NCBI GenBank assembly: GCA_013151015.1 | Contig: JAADJA010000086.1 | Coordinates: 1-46,955 of the forward strand | DNA: 46,955 nucleotides | Source: Chlorobiota bacterium | GTDB lineage: Bacteria > Bacteroidota > Bacteroidia > Bacteroidales > JAADJA01 | Direction of reading: 5' to 3' | Part shown: one piece after another, positions 11,746-46,955 of the stretch | Layout of the letters: every line of letters starts with the position of its first letter | Position numbering within the stretch: the first letter of the stretch is position 1 | Position numbers and translations under genes: made by a program | Notes under the pieces: model-generated | The model's input: only the letters and a program-made list of their open reading frames with translations | Databases searched by the model: none | Told to the model about the DNA's origin: nothing

Positions 11746-14682
11746 ATGTACATCAATTGCCATTCAAATTTTAGCCTCCGTTATGGAACCCTTCCCGTTG
11801 AGAAGCTGGTGAAGCTGGCAAAGGAATATAGTGTTCCGGCATTGGCGTTGACGGACATTAATAATTCATCGGCGATGCTCGATTTTGTAAAAATCTGCAA
11901 AAATAAGGGCATAAAACCCATTGCCGGGATCGAGATTAGGAACGGGAACAAATATCTATATACGGGCATTGCAAAAAACAATGAAGGCTTTAGGGAATTG
12001 AACGAATTTGTTTCTCGTCATAATTTCAATAAAAAAGAGTATCAGGCTTATGCAGAAGGATTTAATGATGTTTATATAATCTATCCATTTAATGGTAGAA
12101 ATCCAGAAGATCTAAGGGGAAATGAGTTCATAGGGATCAAACCCCATGAAGTTTTAAAGCTTTTTACTTCCCCTTATTTTCGTGACCGATCCAAGCTGAT
12201 TATACAACAACCTGTGACTTTTGCCGATAAGGAGGGTTATTTCATCCATAAGAACCTGCGGGCCATTGACAATAACATCCTGCTCTCGCAATTGACGCCC
12301 GAAATGCTTGCAGGTGAAGCAGAAACCCTGATACCTGTCGATGAGCTGCTGGCTTTTTATCGTGATTATCCCCAAATAATCAAAAACACCGAAAAGTTCA
12401 TCGATGAGTGTGAAATTGATTTTGACTATAAATCATTGAAGAACAAAAAGACCTTTACCGATGATGTTGTCGATGACAAGACCCTGCTTAGGAAACTTGC
12501 TTTTGATGGGCTCGATTATCGTTATGGGATGAAAAACAAAACGGCAAGGGAGCGGGTGGAAAAAGAGTTGGGCATTATCTTCAAACTTGGGTTTGCGGCC
12601 TATTTCCTCATTGCCTGGGACATTATCCGTTATTCCATGTCGCGCGGTTTTTACCATGTGGGGCGGGGGAGCGGCGCCAACAGCGTAGTGGCCTATTGCC
12701 TTAAAATCACCGATGTGGACCCCATTGACCTTGATTTGTATTTTGAACGTTTCCTGAACCCCAAACGGACCAGTCCCCCGGATTTTGACATTGACTATTC
12801 ATGGCGCGACCGGGAAGAAGTGCAGGATTATATTTTCAAACGCTATGGCCATGAACATACGGCTTTGCTGGGGGCAACCTCCACTTTCAAACGGAAATCC
12901 ATTTTGAGGGAATTGGGGAAAGTGTATGGATTGCCAAAAACAGAAATTGATGAATTGGTGGACAATACGGAGAAATCCGCAAGGGAAAATTCAATAGCAA
13001 GAGAAATTGTAGAGATTTCCAGGAATCTCACAGATTTTCCCAATATCCGTAGCATACACGCCGGTGGGATTTTGATTTCGGAAAAACCGCTCACATATTA
13101 CACAGCCCTTGATTTGCCCCCAAAGGGTTTCCCCACAACGCAATGGGATATGTACGTGGCCGAGGACTTCGGGTTCGAGAAACTGGACATCCTTAGCCAA
13201 CGCGGGATTGGGCACATTCGTGATGCGGCTGAAATTATTTTGGAAAACCGTGGGATAAGGATAGATGTCCATCAGATAGATAAGTTCAAAAAGGATAAAA
13301 AGGTAAGGGCACAGTTGAAACGGGGCGAGACCATCGGTTGTTTTTATGTCGAAAGCCCTGCCATGCGCGGGCTGTTGAACAAACTACGTTGCGACAATTA
13401 CCTGAGCCTTGTGGCGGCCAGCTCCATCATCCGTCCGGGCGTGGCAAAATCGGGGATGATGCGCGAATATATCCATCGTTTCCACAATCCCGACAAATTC
13501 GAATATCTCCATCCGGTGATGAAAGAACAATTGCAGGAAACCTTTGGAGTAATGGTGTACCAGGAGGATGTGTTGAAAGTTTGCCACCATTTTGCCGACC
13601 TTGATTTGAGCGATGCCGATGTGTTGCGCCGTGCCATGAGCGGCAAGTTCAGGGGAGGCAAGGAGATGAAACGCATTGTCGGGAAGTTTTTTGGCAATTG
13701 CAAAGAAAAAGGCTATTCCGATGAACTCACAAAAGAGGTGTGGAGACAGATCGAATCCTTTGCCGGCTATTCCTTTTCCAAGGCCCATTCGGCTTCCTAT
13801 GCTGTCGAAAGTTTCCAGAGCCTTTTTCTGAAAGCCTGGTTCCCGTTGGAGTTTATGGTTGCGGTCATCAATAATTTTGGTGGTTTTTATCATACATGGG
13901 TTTATTTTGGCGAAGCGAAATACCATGGGGCAAATATCGAACTTCCCTGCGTGAACCATAGTAATTATCTCACGCACATCATCGGAAAGGATATTTACGT
14001 GGGATTTGTCCACATTGCCAATCTTGAAAACAAGGCTGGAAAGAAAATCCGGGACGAAAGGCAATTGAACGGCAATTTCAATGATTTGGAGGATTTTATC
14101 CGGCGGGTGGATATTGGATTGGACCAGCTCATAATCCTTATCCGTACCGATGCTTTCCGTTTTACGGGGAAACAAAAAGCAGAGTTGCTATGGGAAGCCC
14201 ATTTGTTCCTGAACAAAGGGAGGCAAAGGCAAACGGGTTCCTTGTTTTATGCTTCGCCAAGGAAGTACAAACTCCCAAAGCTTGAACAAAGCCCGGTGGC
14301 GAATGCCTATGATGAAATCGAGTTTATCGGTTTCCCTGTCAGCATGTCTTATTTTGATTTGTTGAAAACCCCGTTCCGTGGTGAAATCACTGCAAAGGAC
14401 TTAATAAAGTATGTTGGGAAAAGGGTGAGGATGCTTGGCCACCTTGTTACGGTTAAGTATGTGAGGACAGTGAGAAAGGAATTGATGCATTTCGGTACTT
14501 TCCTCGATGTCAATGGTGAATTCTTCGATACTGTTCATTTCCCCAACTCCCTGAGGAACTACCCATTTCGTGGAAATGGCCTTTATCTCATCCTTGGCCT
14601 GGTGACCGCTGAATTTGATTTTCCAAGCCTCACGGTTGAAAAACTGGCAAAATTACCTTTGAAGGGCGATCCACGGGAATGA
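11746..14682 (+). CDS. dnaE: DNA polymerase III alpha-type subunit (DnaE/DnaE2-like, short form)
   Basis: From the ATG at 11746 it is 978 residues; a GTG at 11725 is in frame but adds 7 residues before the PHP domain. Order: PHP domain (1-200), polymerase palm with RGSGANSVVAYCL and the catalytic PDFDIDY, a further Asp in KLDILSQRGIGHI, fingers with SFSKAHSASYAVES, a helix-hairpin-helix region, and a C-terminal OB fold (GKRVRMLGHLV to VNGEFFDTVHF). It is shorter than replicative DnaE (about 1,160) and lacks the tau-binding tail. The PHP metal site is degraded: the usual HxH is NCHS and the usual TDH is TDINN. Together with dinB this suggests an accessory, error-prone polymerase rather than the main replicase. 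No clear promoter of its own was seen. Confidence 0.9.
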   Translation: MYINCHSNFSLRYGTLPVEKLVKLAKEYSVPALALTDINNSSAMLDFVKICKNKGIKPIAGIEIRNGNKYLYTGIAKNNEGFRELNEFVSRHNFNKKEYQAYAEGFNDVYIIYPFNGRNPEDLRGNEFIGIKPHEVLKLFTSPYFRDRSKLIIQQPVTFADKEGYFIHKNLRAIDNNILLSQLTPEMLAGEAETLIPVDELLAFYRDYPQIIKNTEKFIDECEIDFDYKSLKNKKTFTDDVVDDKTLLRKLAFDGLDYRYGMKNKTARERVEKELGIIFKLGFAAYFLIAWDIIRYSMSRGFYHVGRGSGANSVVAYCLKITDVDPIDLDLYFERFLNPKRTSPPDFDIDYSWRDREEVQDYIFKRYGHEHTALLGATSTFKRKSILRELGKVYGLPKTEIDELVDNTEKSARENSIAREIVEISRNLTDFPNIRSIHAGGILISEKPLTYYTALDLPPKGFPTTQWDMYVAEDFGFEKLDILSQRGIGHIRDAAEIILENRGIRIDVHQIDKFKKDKKVRAQLKRGETIGCFYVESPAMRGLLNKLRCDNYLSLVAASSIIRPGVAKSGMMREYIHRFHNPDKFEYLHPVMKEQLQETFGVMVYQEDVLKVCHHFADLDLSDADVLRRAMSGKFRGGKEMKRIVGKFFGNCKEKGYSDELTKEVWRQIESFAGYSFSKAHSASYAVESFQSLFLKAWFPLEFMVAVINNFGGFYHTWVYFGEAKYHGANIELPCVNHSNYLTHIIGKDIYVGFVHIANLENKAGKKIRDERQLNGNFNDLEDFIRRVDIGLDQLIILIRTDAFRFTGKQKAELLWEAHLFLNKGRQRQTGSLFYASPRKYKLPKLEQSPVANAYDEIEFIGFPVSMSYFDLLKTPFRGEITAKDLIKYVGKRVRMLGHLVTVKYVRTVRKELMHFGTFLDVNGEFFDTVHFPNSLRNYPFRGNGLYLILGLVTAEFDFPSLTVEKLAKLPLKGDPRE

Positions 14683-17915: not shown

Positions 17916-17925
17916 ATTGGGAAAG

Positions 17926-18510
17926 ATGGAAATAAATCAGGAATTTAAAGGCAAACTAATCATTTTCTCCGCTCCTTCAGGGGCGGGAAAAACAACCATT
18001 GTGCACCATTTGCTGAAATCCGGGCTTGATCTGCAATTTTCGATTTCGGCGGCTTCGCGGGAAAAACGAAAAAACGAAATTGATGGGAAAGACTATTATT
18101 TCATCCCTGCCGATGAATTCAGGAAAAAGATAGAAAACAATGAGTTTTTAGAGTGGGAAGAAGTTTACAAAGATCATTATTATGGAACATTGAAATCAGA
18201 GGTGGAGAGGATTTGGAGCGAAGGCCTCCATGTGATTTTTGATGTGGACGTAGTGGGCGGGATGAACATAAAGAAATACTATGGCGACCGTGCCTTGTCT
18301 GTTTTTGTGATGCCCCCTTCGGTGAAGCACCTTGAAGAGCGCTTGAGAAAACGTTCGACCGATAGTTAAGAAAAAATAAAACTGCGATTGCAGAAAGCTG
18401 AAAAAGAACTGGAATTTGCTAAGCATTTTGATAAAATAATCGTGAACGATGATTTAAAAACAGCACAAGCTGAAGCTGTCCGGATTGTATCTGGATTTAT
18501 AAATAACTGA
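17926..18510 (+). pseudogene. gmk: Guanylate kinase interrupted by an in-frame TAA
   Basis: Guanylate kinase converts GMP to GDP with ATP and is normally essential. The ATG at 17926 (MEINQEF) is better than the in-frame TTG at 17917. The P-loop [10 protein letters not shown], the GMP-binding [16 protein letters not shown] block and [14 protein letters not shown] are intact. The frame then stops at TAA, 18367-18369, after RKRSTDS. Reading on in the same frame gives EKIKLRLQKAEKELEFAKHF and IVNDDLKTA to a TGA at 18510, exactly the missing C terminus. Family members have RSTDSEEKI here, so one GAA codon became TAA by a single G-to-T change. The full length would be about 194 residues, normal for the family. 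The truncated 147-residue product lacks the end of the lid and the last core helices. Sequence error, readthrough or a real null are all possible. Confidence 0.85.
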
Positions 18511-24099: not shown

Positions 24100-24942
24100 A
24101 TGAAAAAAGAAGTAGTTTTAAGTTTTACAAATAATTTTGACGATCATTCACATACTACCGAAAACGGTATTGGATTTTGGTTTGCAAGGGATATGCAACA
24201 CCTTTTGGGATATTCCGAATGGCGTAATTTTTATAGAGTCATTTTAAAAGCAAGAATAACTTGTGAAGCTACAAATAATGCAGTATCCGATCATTTTGTC
24301 GACGTTAACAAAACGATTGAAATGCCAAAAGGGGCAAGTAAAGAAATTCAGGACATAATGCTTACACGATATGCCTGTTATTTAATTGCCCAAAATGGAG
24401 ATCCAAGAAAAGAAACCATTGCATTTGCCCAGAATTATTTTGCCATACAAACAAGAAGGTTTGAACTTGTAGAAAAGCGAATAAATGAATGGGAGCGCTT
24501 ACAAGCAAGGCAGAAACTCACGTTGTCAGAAAAAGAACTTTCCGGGCTTATTTATGAACAAACAGGAAGCGACCGAAATTTTGGAATAATACGGAGCAAG
24601 GGCGATAGGGCGTTGTTTGGTAAAACAACCCAGCAAATGAAAGATAAGCTCAACATTCCAAAAGGTAGGGCCTTGGCAGATTTTTTACCGACCATTACCA
24701 TAAAAGCAAAAGACTTTGCCACAGAAATAACGGTTTTTAATACAAAAGAAAAAGGTTTTTCATCTGAACGGCAAATATCCGCCGAACATATTACAAACAA
24801 TCGCTCTGTAAGACGGATTTTGCTTGAAAGGGGGATAAAACCGGAAGAACTGCCACCTGAAGAAGATATCAAAAAATTGGAACGTAGGGTAAAATCTGAT
24901 GATAAAAGAATTAGCAAAAACCCTGAAAAACTGGATAAATAG
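24100..24942 (+). CDS. dinD: DNA-damage-inducible protein D (DinD family)
   Basis: Starting at the ATG at 24100 (the in-frame TTG at 24097 is less likely), 280 residues. The N-terminal BRO-N-like DNA-binding domain shows GIGFWFARDMQHLLGYSEWRNF, followed by KEIQDIMLTRYACYLIAQNGDP, which is diagnostic of DinD. The central helical part has EKRINEWERLQARQKL and the end is charged. E. coli DinD belongs to the SOS regulon and inhibits RecA-mediated strand exchange. Lower GC than neighbours and placement between two independent transcription signals suggest an insertion. Whether the S24 regulator 15 kb away controls it cannot be seen. Confidence 0.9.
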   Translation: MKKEVVLSFTNNFDDHSHTTENGIGFWFARDMQHLLGYSEWRNFYRVILKARITCEATNNAVSDHFVDVNKTIEMPKGASKEIQDIMLTRYACYLIAQNGDPRKETIAFAQNYFAIQTRRFELVEKRINEWERLQARQKLTLSEKELSGLIYEQTGSDRNFGIIRSKGDRALFGKTTQQMKDKLNIPKGRALADFLPTITIKAKDFATEITVFNTKEKGFSSERQISAEHITNNRSVRRILLERGIKPEELPPEEDIKKLERRVKSDDKRISKNPEKLDK

Positions 24943-40393: not shown

Positions 40394-41038
40394 CCAATTC
40401 TTAAATGGCTGCAATTTATTGTACTCCTCATTTTGGCAAAGCAGAATTCTGCCATAAATTTTTCTAGTGGTTTTCTGCCATGCTTTTCCAAAAACCTTTG
40501 TTTATTATTGTCGCCTGAATTGTAAAAAGTTTTCAACAACAGGGTAACCTTTTGCCCTTTTGTGGAATCAACTAATTGCAAATCAAGGATTCGTTCAGTA
40601 GGTGGGATATTGTTTATGAAACAACGCATAACTTTTTAACACCTAACTTTTATCTTTTAACACATGAGCTTTTACCGTTAACTGAAAGAAACCTACCGTT
40701 AACTGATTTGCCTTGCGATTATAGAAATTAATTCATTATATTTGGCAAACCATTTTAAAACCAGGAACGCTTTGAACAAGGCCAAAATATGCAGTATTAT
40801 GTGCTTTTTCTGTTACGGCAGGAAATGTAGCATATTGGCTATTCTTTATGTGGCTGCATGTCAGGCGATTACCCTCCCCATAAATATAAAAGGCTAATAT
40901 CCTTTTTTTGGGTGGGGGCACAGTTGAGGCCAATTTTGGTTTGCCTGGGGATATTCCGTTTTCATCTTTTCTGAACAGGGCAAAACAAATTGGCCATTGA
41001 TGCCCTTAAATTATTTTTCAAACAAAAAAACAGAAAAG
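40394..41038. other. 645-base intergenic region before the T9SS cargo genes
   Basis: An 87-residue minus-strand frame across 40366-40629 has no family resemblance and overlaps the LysM gene end. TACCGTTAACTGA-type words occur twice near 40675-40705. The rest is AT-rich with a promoter-like site at 40712-40744; otherwise I see nothing. Confidence 0.4.
40712..40744 (+). promoter_or_regulatory. Possible promoter for the T9SS cargo gene
   Basis: CTTG (40712-40715), a 21-base spacer and TATATTTG (40737-40744), a full -7 match. If used it would give a leader of nearly 290 bases before the ATG at 41039. Confidence 0.35.
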
Positions 41039-44000
41039 ATGAAAAAGAACATATTAAAAACAGTATTTATAGTAATATTGACAATCATGATTTCAAGTTT
41101 AACAAAGGCGCAGGAGTATGGGAGCTGGGTGGTGCCCTACCACGAAGCCAATGGAGGGGCGCTCGACCAAGCCTGGGAATTGGGTTTTTGGACTACCGAT
41201 ATACAAAGTACGGTAATTAACATCGACTTGCCCGATGGTGATTACCAATATGATTTTTCCACGGGTGGCTATGCCCAGGACGGTGAGCTCCTTTTTTACG
41301 TTATCGACAAGAACGTTTATGAAGCAGGTACCAATACCATTGTCGGCACTTTCTATATTGATAATACATTTGTAACAGACCCTGAAGTTGAAATTGTAAG
41401 GGAGCCGGGAAGCACTTCAAAGTATTACATCATATACAGTGCCCACGATCCTACTTCAAACGGCCCGGATGATTATGTCGGGTTTTATTATTCCGAAGTA
41501 TATGTGGATGCAGGTACGGGAGCCGTTAGCCTTGGAAACCTTGAACAACAATTGACCTCCTATATTGGAGCCGACCATGGTGCATTTGCCGTTTCGAAAA
41601 TGAGCAATGGGGAAAAGGCCTTGTACAGGTGCACAGGTGGAAATGGCATAACGAAAACCATGATTACCACAAATGGGATTTCAACAAGTGTCGAACTGAT
41701 CCTCGACAGAAACGATCCAACAATCGGGAGCCATTATAATTTCGAGGCATATAATTTTGAAATGCTGGAAAAAAGCAATGGGCAAACTGTTTTTGCATGG
41801 AGCACAATGACATCTTATCCGACAGGGAACGATGAAAAGGACAAGGTTTTCATATATAACATGACCTTGGGGCAAGCATTGAAAATAGATGTTGATGAAA
41901 ACAGTACGGGCAAAATTGGCGGCCTTGAGTTTTCTACCTGGGAAGACGATGTCATATATGTATCTTACCGCTCGGACATACCTGCCAATTCGGGGTTGAT
42001 AAAACTTGATTATTCGAACCCGAACCAAATCCTTAGGGAAAACATTACTTCACAGGACAACGATTATAGCCATACTTTTCTGCAACTTGCGCCCGATGGC
42101 AACATTTACGGTGTTGCCAACGATGGCCTTAGCCTTTGCCAGATAAACATGGGAAACGGTATGTTCACTCCAGGGTATTTTCCTGGTGAAGTATTGTCCT
42201 ACATATCCACTTATGGCCAGCCCAACTATTATATCCTGCCCGAGAACGAGCAACCCATCCTGGGAATGATCCTCACGGCCGGGGGCGTTTCCTGCGGCTG
42301 CGATGACAACAATGATGGCTCGGTTACGGTTTTCCCCCGGGGAGGTGTTCCACCTTACACATTTGCATGGACCGATAGTCAGGGAAACCCCATGGGCAAT
42401 ACACAAACAATTACAAACCTACCGGTGGGGAATTATACTTGTTGTATTACCGATTCTGATTCGCCCCCTTATACATACTGCGAAAACGTACAGGTTATGT
42501 TGGATCCGGGCTTGTTGAGTTTTACATTTGACGACAACCTGTACGATATTGACAATTCAAATGTGACATGGTCAAATATGAATTTTTCGTTCCGTTATGG
42601 CATTCGTGTTCACGAGGGGTACAAACTTACCATCGACCAAGGCAGCTACATGGAGTTTGGCGAAGATGCCAAGATAATCGTGGAGCCCGGTGCTGAGCTT
42701 GTGATCGATAATTCCACCCTATCCTATTTTGCGGACTGCCCATGTGGATGGCTGGGGATAGAGGTGTGGGGCAATCCTGAGGTCCACCAGTACCAATGCA
42801 ACGGCGTGATCCAACAGGGGAAGGTCACCATAAAGAACGGGAGCCTGATAGAACATGCCGAGATAGCCGTATTGCTTGGTTCAAGGGTCGGGTCGGGCTC
42901 TTCCGGTGGCGGGATTCTCCAAATACCCAACAATGGGAGCATGGAAACAAAGAGCGCAAGCTTCCTGAACAACAGGTATGCGCTCTATTTCACCCCTTAC
43001 CAGAATTACAGGTTCGATGTAAACTGCAACAATACCCTCCCGGCGGCAAACCTTAGCTATATCTACAATGCCCTTTTCGAGGTAAATGCCAATTACATCT
43101 ATGGCAACTGGGGCCATGCCCATACCAAGCTCAACAAAGTTGACGGAATTGATTTCCATGGTTGCACCTTTGCCCAATACCAGAACCCAGAACCAAAAGG
43201 GAAGGGGATAGATGCGCTGGGTTCGGGTTTTTCCGTTGAAGAAATTTGTAATTCCATACAGAAGCCCTGTCCCGAAAACTCGGTAGTTTACAGCAGCTTC
43301 ACCAATTTTAATAAAGCCATAGTATCTGCAAATTCTGGTGTTTACACAGCTTTGGTTAAAAACACCGATTTTTATGATAACAGCCTTGGCATAAAACTCA
43401 GCAACGTGAACAATGCAACGGTGATTATGAACAATTTCTACCTTGGCAAACCCGCTGCTTGCGACCTGCAGACGACAACTTCCTTTGGAATTGACATTTT
43501 GGGCTCCACAGGTTTTGCGATAGAGGAGAATTTCTTCACAAAGGCAAACGGTGCGCCCACGGGGAATTATATTGGAATAAGGGTGAAGGATTGCCCAAGC
43601 ACATGGGACATTGTCTATTTAAATGATTTTGACGGACTTAGCTACGGAAACTATGCGCAGGGGACAAATAGAGAAACTCAAAATAATGATGGGACTGGAG
43701 TGGAATACCGTTGCAACACAAATACCAACAATGCCGTGGATTTTATTGTTACAGGAGCAATACCAATACAAGCCATGATCCGTACCGAACAGGGCACAGA
43801 GGATGTCGCTTCGGGGAATGTGTTTTCGAACCCGGTTAAATGGCATTACCGCAACGAAGGGCTTCAATTCATCAATTATTGGTATTGCAATACATGCCCC
43901 AACGAGGAGCCCATGAGCATTTATATGTTGCCCGGGTATAATACGTTCGACAAGGACATTGCTGAACACCCAAATACATGCCCTTCGCATTATGGAGGTG

Positions 44001-44335
44001 GGGGAACAGTTGGTACAGGGGGGAGGCTATTGCTCACCGATACCGAAAAACTGGAAATGGAACAGGCTTATTCTCAAAACCTTTCTAATTATAACAATGT
44101 AAAAGCACTTGCCGATAACCTGAAAGATGGTGGGAACACCGATGTGTTGCTCAATGAAGTGGAGCTAAGCTGGCCCAACGATATGTGGGAACTGCGTTCA
44201 AAACTTTTGGGCGATTCGCCCCACCTTTCGAAAGAGGTGTTGATGACGGCAGCCGATAAAACGGACGTATTGCCCGAATCGGTCTTGTTCGAGATATTAT
44301 CGGCCAACCCAGATGAGCTCAAAAGCCTGAACTAA
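41039..44335 (+). CDS. Large secreted T9SS cargo, N-terminal part (SprB repeat, beta-helix), ends at a frameshift
   Basis: From the ATG at 41039 (MKKNILK) a signal peptide leads to KAQEYGSW; the earlier in-frame start at 40997 adds non-signal residues. Roughly 1,098 residues: residues 20-410 look like a propeller-type domain, about 420-500 is a SprB-like repeat (DDNNDGSVTVFPRGGVPPYTF, TNLPVGNYTCCITDSD), about 530-960 has beta-helix features (IIVEPGAELVIDNSTL, LGIEVWGNPEVHQ, KNGSLIEHAEIAVLLG). Near the end ADKTDVLPESVLFEILSANPDEL is a segment seen before the sorting domain in related proteins. The frame stops at 44333-44335, but the adjacent frame continues the same protein. Function unknown; adhesin-like. 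Confidence 0.8.
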   Translation: MKKNILKTVFIVILTIMISSLTKAQEYGSWVVPYHEANGGALDQAWELGFWTTDIQSTVINIDLPDGDYQYDFSTGGYAQDGELLFYVIDKNVYEAGTNTIVGTFYIDNTFVTDPEVEIVREPGSTSKYYIIYSAHDPTSNGPDDYVGFYYSEVYVDAGTGAVSLGNLEQQLTSYIGADHGAFAVSKMSNGEKALYRCTGGNGITKTMITTNGISTSVELILDRNDPTIGSHYNFEAYNFEMLEKSNGQTVFAWSTMTSYPTGNDEKDKVFIYNMTLGQALKIDVDENSTGKIGGLEFSTWEDDVIYVSYRSDIPANSGLIKLDYSNPNQILRENITSQDNDYSHTFLQLAPDGNIYGVANDGLSLCQINMGNGMFTPGYFPGEVLSYISTYGQPNYYILPENEQPILGMILTAGGVSCGCDDNNDGSVTVFPRGGVPPYTFAWTDSQGNPMGNTQTITNLPVGNYTCCITDSDSPPYTYCENVQVMLDPGLLSFTFDDNLYDIDNSNVTWSNMNFSFRYGIRVHEGYKLTIDQGSYMEFGEDAKIIVEPGAELVIDNSTLSYFADCPCGWLGIEVWGNPEVHQYQCNGVIQQGKVTIKNGSLIEHAEIAVLLGSRVGSGSSGGGILQIPNNGSMETKSASFLNNRYALYFTPYQNYRFDVNCNNTLPAANLSYIYNALFEVNANYIYGNWGHAHTKLNKVDGIDFHGCTFAQYQNPEPKGKGIDALGSGFSVEEICNSIQKPCPENSVVYSSFTNFNKAIVSANSGVYTALVKNTDFYDNSLGIKLSNVNNATVIMNNFYLGKPAACDLQTTTSFGIDILGSTGFAIEENFFTKANGAPTGNYIGIRVKDCPSTWDIVYLNDFDGLSYGNYAQGTNRETQNNDGTGVEYRCNTNTNNAVDFIVTGAIPIQAMIRTEQGTEDVASGNVFSNPVKWHYRNEGLQFINYWYCNTCPNEEPMSIYMLPGYNTFDKDIAEHPNTCPSHYGGGGTVGTGGRLLLTDTEKLEMEQAYSQNLSNYNNVKALADNLKDGGNTDVLLNEVELSWPNDMWELRSKLLGDSPHLSKEVLMTAADKTDVLPESVLFEILSANPDELKSLN

Positions 44336-44364
44336 TCAAATACCTTGAAGACAAGGAACAGCCC

Positions 44365-45186
44365 TTGCCGGAATTTATGATAGACATATTGAAACAATTG
44401 ACCACAGGTGTTACCTACAAAACCATACTGAAAAGGCAGATGGCAAAATACCATGCGGCAAAATCGTTTGCGGCCTTGGACATGGTACGTAGCATACTTG
44501 CCGATTCGGTATTTGACATTGTACAGTACCGTAATTGGTTGGACAACCTTGGAGGCCTTGGTGCCGACAAACAAATTATTGCATCGTATGTAAGCGAGGG
44601 CGATTATGCCAATGCCCAGACAATGCTCGGGCTATTGCCCACATTGTATGGCCTTGAAGAGGATGCCCTCAATAAGTACAACGACTATAAGGCAATTGCA
44701 TTAATGCAAGTAGCATGGGATCAGCAAGAGAAAAGTGTTTTTGATCTTGATGAGTCAGAAATCACCGTTTTGCAAGTTTATGCCGATAGTTCCAAAGGGA
44801 CTGCAAGGTATATTGCCCAAGGTATATTGAATTTTGCTTATGATTTTGATTATTGCGACTGCCCAATAATTTCGGACACAAGCTTTATGAAAAGCAGCGA
44901 AACAGAAAACCCAGATCCTTTGGACAGGATGTTCAGTGCGAAAGTTTCTGTAAGCCCAAACCCGGCAGGTGAATGGACAACATTTTATTTTGAACTGCCC
45001 AACAATTCATCAGTGTGCAATATCAAAATTACCAATGTTACAGGTTCTGTTGTAAAAACATTTACTGTTACAGGAAAACAGGGGCAGCAGCTTTGGGATA
45101 CACGCAAAATAAGATCGGGGGTTTATTTCTACACATTGAATGTGAATGGAAAAACCAAATCCGGCAAAATTGTTATCAATAAATAA
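44365..45186 (+). CDS. C-terminal part of the same T9SS cargo protein, with sorting domain
   Basis: The open frame begins before this point: reading upstream from the TTG at 44365 gives KPELIKYLEDKEQPLPEF, which directly continues the family segment cut off in the previous gene. This piece is mostly helical (FMIDILKQLTTGVTYKTILKRQ, YRNWLDNLGGLGADKQIIASY) and ends with a type A sorting domain (VSPNPAGEWTTFYF, IKITNVTGSVVKT, RSGVYFYTLNV, KSGKIVINK). Without it the upstream product could not be recognised by the type IX system. A terminator follows. I regard 41039-45186 as a single gene of about 1,380 codons with one base lost in the A run at 44321-44324. Confidence 0.8.
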   Translation: MPEFMIDILKQLTTGVTYKTILKRQMAKYHAAKSFAALDMVRSILADSVFDIVQYRNWLDNLGGLGADKQIIASYVSEGDYANAQTMLGLLPTLYGLEEDALNKYNDYKAIALMQVAWDQQEKSVFDLDESEITVLQVYADSSKGTARYIAQGILNFAYDFDYCDCPIISDTSFMKSSETENPDPLDRMFSAKVSVSPNPAGEWTTFYFELPNNSSVCNIKITNVTGSVVKTFTVTGKQGQQLWDTRKIRSGVYFYTLNVNGKTKSGKIVINK

Positions 45187-45195
45187 TTTAAAAGT

Positions 45196-45226
45196 GTGCC
45201 ACGCTTTTTTAGCGTGGCACCTTTTT
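45196..45226 (+). terminator. Rho-independent terminator between the T9SS cargo genes
   Basis: GTGCCACGCT-TTTTT-AGCGTGGCAC is a perfect 10-base stem followed by CTTTTT, 10 bases after the preceding stop codon. Confidence 0.85.
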
Positions 45227-45241
45227 AAAAACTTTTTGGAT

Positions 45242-46955
45242 ATGAAAAAGATGATAACAATTTTAATATTAACAAGTTTGGCAATTTATTCATTTGGACA
45301 AATCCCGGAAATAACCTGGCAGAATTGCTTTGGTACAGATGAAGATGAGAATGCCAAATGTATTTTAAAAACTGACAATGGTTATCTATTGGGAATAACC
45401 CTTGAATCAGATGGCCCTGGTATTACAAATTTCCATGGGGTAGCAGATGCCTGGATTATTAGTGTTGACACAGTTGGCAATGTTATATGGGAAAAGTGTT
45501 TTGGGGGTAGTGAAGCAGAGACATCTCATCAAATAATTAAAGCCTCTAACCATAATTACTATTTGTTAAATAGTTCGAATTCAACCGATGGTGATGTGCA
45601 ATCTCAAAGCAATGGCCTGACAGATTTTTGGATTGTTAAAATTGATGAAGTGGGCAACATTCTATGGGAGCGTTGTTATGGCAGCCCTAATGGCGACACA
45701 CCAGTGGATGCTATTTCGACACCTGACGGGGGCTTGATATTCATGGGGAGGATATGGACCGCTGGGGGTGATGTGCAAATATATTATGGTGCCTATGATA
45801 TTTGGTTTTGCAAGATAGATTCCCTTGGTAACATTGAATGGGAAAAAACAATAGGTAATGAGGGGATTGACAATGCCATTAATTTAAAGTTGACGTCGGA
45901 TACCACTTTTTCGTTTATCGGGGGTTATTATGAACTGGGCGGTATGATAGATTGCTATGTGCCGTCAACAGGCTCTGGGGCTGATTTGTGGTTGGTGGAA
46001 TTAAATCTTTCGGATGGAGATATACTGAACCAATATTGCTATGGCGGCAGTTACAATGATTTGGGGTATTATTTTGAGAAATTAGATGATGGTTATATAC
46101 TCGTTTCTTCGACTACTTCAAATAATGGAGATGTTTCAGGTCTGCACGGCCCTCCTGGTGACCCAAATTATCAAGATATTTGGGTAGTTAGAATTGATGA
46201 ACAGGGGGGGATTGAATGGCAAAAATGCCTTGGAGGGTCTGGACTTGAAGTCCCAAATTATATAGGTCAAACCAAAGATGGTGGTTTTATGGTAATCGGG
46301 TATACCCGTTCTTATAACGGAGATGTAAACGGCAACCACTCCATGCCGGGAGACGCAGATATCTGGGTCGTTAAACTTGACAAGGATGGTGAAATCATAT
46401 GGCAACATTGCTATGGTGGCTGGGGAAATGATAGGTTTTGGGGTCTAAATTCTGTTGTTAAAAAAGATGATAACAGCTATATAATATTGGCTCAATCCGA
46501 CAACGGATCGGATGATGTGGAATGTACCATAAATCAAGGGTATTACTACGATGCCTGGCTCTTTGAGATAAAAGACTGCTCCCAATATCCCGTGGGCGGC
46601 ATAGGGGCAATCACCGGGCCGGACACTATATGTATGGTTTACGACAGCACCAACCTATATACCATAGACCCGGTAACGGGCGCATGGGAATACGGTTGGC
46701 AACTAATACCAAATGAGGCCGGAACCATAAACGGCAGCGGCTCACAGGCCACGGTCAACTGGGTTCCTGGCTGGGAGGGCACCGCAAGCATAAGTGTCCG
46801 TGCCATGAACGATTGCGATACCTCGCAGTGGTCGCAGCCACAATACACAGAGGTTTTCACCTGTCTCGGCATAGAAGAACTGAACGCCGGGAAGGTGAAG
46901 ATGAGGGTTTACCCCAATCCGGCCAAGGGGTTTGTAATATTTTCATCCTACGCTA
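45242..46955 (+). CDS. T9SS cargo protein with repeated propeller-like units, cut by the right edge
   Basis: The ATG at 45242 opens MKKMITILILTSLAIYSFGQ, a signal peptide, and the frame stays open for 571 codons to the window end. Residues 25-440 hold about six units of 60-70 residues with the pattern DxWIVKID..GNI.WE.C.GG (for example DFWIVKIDEVGNILWERCYG and DIWVVRIDEQGGIEWQKCLG), interleaved with DGGF-type strands, as in propeller proteins annotated in Bacteroidota. About 450-540 is a PKD-like domain (ITGPDTICMVYDSTN to ISVRAMNDCDTSQWS). The last visible residues, RVYPNPAKGFVIFSSYA, are the opening of a type A sorting domain, so only about 60-70 residues are missing. Function unknown. Confidence 0.85.
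   Translation, partial: MKKMITILILTSLAIYSFGQIPEITWQNCFGTDEDENAKCILKTDNGYLLGITLESDGPGITNFHGVADAWIISVDTVGNVIWEKCFGGSEAETSHQIIKASNHNYYLLNSSNSTDGDVQSQSNGLTDFWIVKIDEVGNILWERCYGSPNGDTPVDAISTPDGGLIFMGRIWTAGGDVQIYYGAYDIWFCKIDSLGNIEWEKTIGNEGIDNAINLKLTSDTTFSFIGGYYELGGMIDCYVPSTGSGADLWLVELNLSDGDILNQYCYGGSYNDLGYYFEKLDDGYILVSSTTSNNGDVSGLHGPPGDPNYQDIWVVRIDEQGGIEWQKCLGGSGLEVPNYIGQTKDGGFMVIGYTRSYNGDVNGNHSMPGDADIWVVKLDKDGEIIWQHCYGGWGNDRFWGLNSVVKKDDNSYIILAQSDNGSDDVECTINQGYYYDAWLFEIKDCSQYPVGGIGAITGPDTICMVYDSTNLYTIDPVTGAWEYGWQLIPNEAGTINGSGSQATVNWVPGWEGTASISVRAMNDCDTSQWSQPQYTEVFTCLGIEELNAGKVKMRVYPNPAKGFVIFSSYA

Follow-up and report, generated by a model that had tools for sequence, protein, structure and literature searches.

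Background

Phase variation often targets surface proteins, and a surface-protein gene whose reading frame breaks at a run of A raises the question of whether the break is a switch, a loss or a fault in the sequence. Such a gene lies in the 46,955-nucleotide stretch of Chlorobiota bacterium DNA analysed here (hereafter the window), where an earlier note, made from the letters alone, had described a large type IX secretion system (T9SS) surface protein split by the loss of one A, and had offered as explanations a slippage that switches the sorting domain on and off, or an assembly error. We followed the geometry of the break, the homologous loci, the residues conserved in both halves and the accuracy of the contig. 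The split gene looks like a broken member of a multi-copy family of surface proteins exported by the T9SS, through either ordinary recent loss or sequence error. With a probability of about one half, we read it as a real, non-switching loss-of-function allele of the sampled cells, which is slightly likelier than a wrong consensus base.

Geometry and coding signal of the frame break

The upstream frame ends on SANPDELKSLN directly before its TAA, as the earlier note had it, and the neighbouring -1 frame, reading ..KPELIKYLEDKEQPLPEF.., indeed runs unbroken to its own stop at 45184-45186 (Table 1). Both frames are open together over a single stretch of 16 bases, so that the frame break must sit within it, and the A run, whose length of four was borne out, lies inside this overlap. 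Homologues align to the two pieces with one base's worth missing in the window, which supports the description of one large T9SS cargo protein split by a one-base frame break. The joined gene counts ~1382 codons, with the A run at ~codon 1095 (~79% along), and TTG 40997 is a possible alternative start.

None of 2000 Markov sequences of the same length was free of stops, so the downstream open frame is more than chance. Coding scores trained without the split gene reached 0.437 for the upstream and 0.441 for the downstream piece (median training ORF, 0.436), the latter scoring -0.60 and -0.67 in its other two frames, and the coding signal of the second piece starts directly after the frame switch, before the first ATG. 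Stop-codon reassignment, considered as a means of bypassing both stops, was rejected: TAA is a normal stop and terminates 17 of 30 counted ORFs of the window.

Over 339 kb, the coding-signal detector returned 18 candidates, of which six were break-like as judged by eye, two each in the window, at one fucosidase-like gene and in one repeat. At L063 (G000:C37:20001-40000, minus strand), neighbouring repeat units of a large protein, near 13240 and 12552, are frameshifted at the same point and the unit preceding the two shifted ones is in frame; this shift looks like a real one, copied along with the repeat. At L065 (9403-10250, minus strand), a fucosidase-like fragment, named by eye, carries an in-frame stop with a frame shift nearby.

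Table 1. Position of the split gene, its parts and neighbouring features, and of the gmk gene, in the window
Feature	Position	Strand	Remarks
Guanylate kinase (gmk)	17917..18510	+	in-frame TAA at 18367; sole gmk match in the genome
5' flank and gene start	40440..41136	+	parts repeated beside other copies
N-terminal piece	41039..44335	+	1098 aa; ATG 41039 to TAA 44333-44335; includes the beginning of the helical domain
Hydrophobic signal-peptide-like start	N-terminus of N-terminal piece	+	charged start and hydrophobic core, by hydropathy only
SprB repeat	residues 421-448 of N-terminal piece		Pfam
Stretch with both frames open	44317..44332	+	16 bases; holds the AAAA run 44321-44324
C-terminal piece, -1 frame	44317..45186	+	rest of helical domain, then T9SS type A sorting domain
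Por_Secre_tail, T9SS type A sorting domain	~44950-45180	+	in C-terminal piece
Terminator-like hairpin	45196..45220	.	just 3' of C-terminal piece; 10 pairs, 7 G-C
Next gene, secreted-type protein with PKD-like domain	45242..46954	+	cut by contig end

Domain content and genomic surroundings

Searched against Pfam and NCBIfam, the N-terminal piece returned nothing beyond the SprB repeat (from Pfam). The sorting domain passes the curated cut-offs of both families (TIGR04183, 46.3 bits vs 23; PF18962, 38.5 vs 27) and lies in a different frame from the signal-peptide-like start, one base apart; judged by hydropathy only, the start of the C-terminal piece has no signal-peptide character. The genome encodes one match to SprA, the T9SS component searched (2573 bits), and 150 scored matches to the type A sorting domain among 253 candidates, the split gene included; three of these 150 are on its contig.

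A structure model of the homologue L076 (390 residues modelled; mean pLDDT 78.4, pTM 0.52) places the break point at a turn between two helices, in an all-helical part spanning ~residues 10-277, with the strands of the sorting domain starting at residue 310. On this model, the frame break is predicted to fall in a helical domain, ~200 residues ahead of the sorting domain, which would therefore not be neatly removed. A fold search with the modelled helical domain returned no match at E <= 0.001, the sensible weak matches being ones that fit the C-terminal domain (CTD).

The 5' flank shares 40658-41133 with C163 of the own genome (75.8% identity) and 40675-41136 with G016:C352 (81%), and parts of the next gene match DNA beside other family copies. 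The hairpin behind the C-terminal piece may mark the end of the transcription unit; the region has no more terminator-like matches than chance would give (4 vs 5.1 expected). Parts of the 5' flank (40440-41136) also recur beside family copies and elsewhere in the own genome and in G016, whose syntenic contig ends there; the locus behaves like a repeated cassette.

Homologous loci at the break point

Relatives were searched in 60 genomes, namely the own genome and 59 relatives, and a frame holding both sides of the break point was found on 22 contigs (4 from the own genome, 18 from relatives), a list that by design shows only frames open across this point. A relative within the genome is an open frame of 1386 codons on C163, sharing 44% identity with the N-terminal piece and 53% with the C-terminal one. 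A test capable of revealing breaks was based on 44 homologous loci from a scan of named genome contigs. Most of these records derive from metagenomes and bear the title Bacteroidales or Bacteroidetes, a few having other titles. Both sides of the break point are visible in 34 of these loci, some of them on the same contigs as in the 60-genome search, and all 34 have them in one frame there. The other ten (L102, L104, L105 and L113-L119) show no recognisable N-terminal side and were not counted; the frame of L104, for instance, has 308 codons and starts ~21 codons ahead of the break point. The window copy is thus the sole one found broken at this point, and three of the 34 loci (L078, L089 and L108) look broken at other places. 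Family copies in G008:C3, G012:C10 and G016:C306 also look broken, at other scattered places.

On C37 of the own genome, all that is left of a related copy is an open tail of 73 codons, headed by three stops. The 5'-flank match ends there ~0.2 kb before the tail (in the window this distance is ~4.2 kb), and behind the decayed copy stands a relative of the window's next gene. Decay of this T9SS surface-protein family in the own genome, as seen in the C37 copy, is real.

Age of the break and accuracy of the contig

Conserved columns were taken from 20 homologues that are open in the compared part. The N-terminal tail keeps 25/25 invariant and 15/16 nearly invariant columns, and the C-terminal piece 31/33 and 32/36, compared with 57/58 and 51/52 in the own paralogue; of eight further controls, seven retain 52 to 58 of the 58 invariant columns and the remaining, shorter one 43/46, L078 among them coming from a locus that is broken elsewhere and open in its compared part. 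Both pieces therefore lie within the range of the controls, with no sign of drift after the break in the conserved columns, and the residues kept in both halves indicate that the break, if real, is recent. Relaxed constraint or several lesions, the marks of a pseudogene, are thus not seen: the lesion is single and the conserved columns are kept, a state with which a very young pseudogene would also be compatible.

The gmk gene provides an indicator of base accuracy on the same contig. It is unbroken in 12/12 other same-genus genomes with a match (4 of 17 genomes gave none), a residue stands at the position of its stop in all 8 relatives aligned among those 12, and PMC11980595 describes the gene as essential in B. 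subtilis. As the sole match of the genome is interrupted, at least one consensus base of the contig seems wrong, and TAA 18367 is probably a consensus error. Rather than an indel, this lesion is a stop codon that leaves the length unchanged. All 37 ABC-transporter domain matches in the genome are without internal stop, a result that fits either reading, an error or a real allele.

Length errors were assessed against G016, whose main blocks are 91-96% identical to the window, over 12 loci of these blocks covering 26.9 kb of 47 kb, the split gene lying outside the compared part. The shared coding sequence, 24.1 kb with 672 homopolymers of at least four bases, contains no uncompensated frameshift well inside a gene. 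Four of 32 length differences alter the frame within an ORF: one ~25 bases from the start of a TTG ORF, one at a gene's stop codon, and two that form an opposite-sign (-1/+1) pair at 24777-24834 in a BRO-N domain gene. Within the compared part, the contig consequently shows no abundance of indel errors. An orthologue of the split gene was sought in G016, where the syntenic contig ends at the 5' flank, before the gene itself; the relatives that G016 does have are all more distant, lying on C352 (37%, covering part of the N-terminal piece) and on C86 (50%, covering the C-terminal piece).

Runs of A and recoding signals

The split gene holds 30 A4, 6 A5 and 1 A6 runs, and apart from a run of T it has no repeat of at least three units of 2-6 bases. 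At the break point, the A run of the 34 open relatives measures 0 to 6 and is not conserved. A contingency gene would carry a hypermutable simple repeat, conserved in relatives, at its switch; the present gene has A4 there and nothing longer, and its relatives 0 to 6 A. In the fusion test in Listeria described in PMC2831843, a sequence of A2GA4, with A4 as its longest run, yielded no deletions (< ~3e-10), deletions being the sole change assayed in that sequence; A6 to A7 occurred ~1000-fold above the point-mutation rate, and A7 to A6 was rare too (~3.9e-8), not significantly different from A2GA4. As for the slippery heptamer and downstream structure of a programmed -1 frameshift, no X XXY YYZ heptamer starts in 44290-44334, and the RNA fold of 44310-44420 is no better than that of shuffles (z -0.27). 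Among the papers searched, none combined type IX secretion, phase variation and frameshift, nor did any combine T9SS, phase variable and homopolymeric.

Discussion

Several explanations can be weighed against a loss of function. That the pieces are two separate genes, never one, is scarcely credible: TTG 44365 could start the second frame, but the pieces stand in one frame in 34/34 comparable relatives, the coding signal begins at the switch, ahead of the first ATG, and the second piece begins without signal-peptide character. Programmed -1 frameshifting or transcriptional slippage, which would yield a short and a full-length product, agrees with a shift of -1 and with the A run in the overlap, but it appears extremely improbable in view of the lack of a shifty heptamer and the unremarkable RNA fold in the regions searched; moreover, 34/34 relatives read through without a shift, so that there is nothing conserved to programme. 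The phase variation suggested by the earlier note, in which A-run slippage turns the full-length protein on and off, draws on the coincidence of the shift with a short A run and on surface proteins being common targets. It is not supported by our results and we regard it as very unlikely, since a run of four is ordinary in a gene so rich in equal or longer ones, varies in length among relatives that are all open at the point, and lies far from the 5' end, and since other family copies are broken at other places; the A2GA4 sequence of the Listeria assay, too, gave no deletions (PMC2831843). Switching of the sorting domain alone is also a poor fit, the break falling ~200 residues earlier, inside the predicted helical domain.

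A consensus or assembly error, with the gene intact in the cell and its sequence short of one base, was the other proposal of the earlier note and has held up as a live option; we consider it a serious contender that falls somewhat short of even odds. It is favoured by the in-frame stop in the sole gmk match, on the same contig, by the conserved residues that both halves retain, by the 34/34 comparable loci open at the point, and by an assembly of 237 contigs that looks like a metagenome bin. Against it, the gmk lesion involves no change of length, and the 24.1 kb shared with G016 are without uncompensated frameshift despite their 672 homopolymers, a comparison that leaves out 20 kb of the window, the split gene included. 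The reality of the allele is inferred from evidence that weighs roughly even, slightly in its favour: a real indel is favoured by the absence of uncompensated frameshifts well inside genes relative to G016, and supported by the decayed C37 copy and the three of 34 loci that look broken elsewhere, with the gmk stop, the single lesion and the unrelaxed constraint as points against.

If the loss-of-function allele is real, the single-base frame break would have arisen recently in the 16-base overlap, and translation would stop four codons on, counted from the A run. T9SS cargo is described as needing both a Sec signal peptide and a C-terminal sorting domain (PMC10202324). Exported through its signal-peptide-like start but lacking a sorting domain, the N-terminal product would be expected to stay periplasmic, off the surface; the C-terminal piece, which shows no signal peptide by hydropathy, is probably not made or not exported. 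Such a loss would be tolerated because of the related copies and the many other sorting-domain proteins of the genome, and tolerance of losing one sorting-domain protein is likely given 150 matches and one SprA. A more speculative extension, which we judge improbable, is a real low-frequency allele under selection, whereby surface display would be lost by ordinary indels, with intact copies persisting or recombination between paralogues restoring it, and the family would turn over by loss and replacement without a dedicated switch.

These results caution against reading phase variation into a frame break that falls on a short A run in such a contig; as the broken gmk on this contig illustrates, a single essential gene can flag faulty bases.

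Comparison with known systems

The protein is of a kind already known, a T9SS type A cargo, split here by either a young frame break or an erroneous base. With other cargo of this type (TIGR04183 / PF18962) it shares a signal-peptide-like start, a large body with an SprB repeat and a C-terminal type A domain, and the CTDs of PorU and mirolase weakly resemble the modelled CTD of the homologue (E ~5e-3); unlike in known cargo, the sorting domain lies here in another reading frame than the body. Contingency genes with homopolymer tracts, of which inlA and swrA are examples described in PMC2831843, have in common with it a frame switch at an A run, but tracts of the inlA/swrA type are six to eight long, whereas the present one is four long, sits in the 3' part of the gene and is not conserved. 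The resemblance extends to frameshifted pseudogenes of multi-copy surface proteins, with a single lesion, an open related copy in the genome and another that has decayed; as only one lesion is present here, however, the gene has the same look as one carrying a base error.
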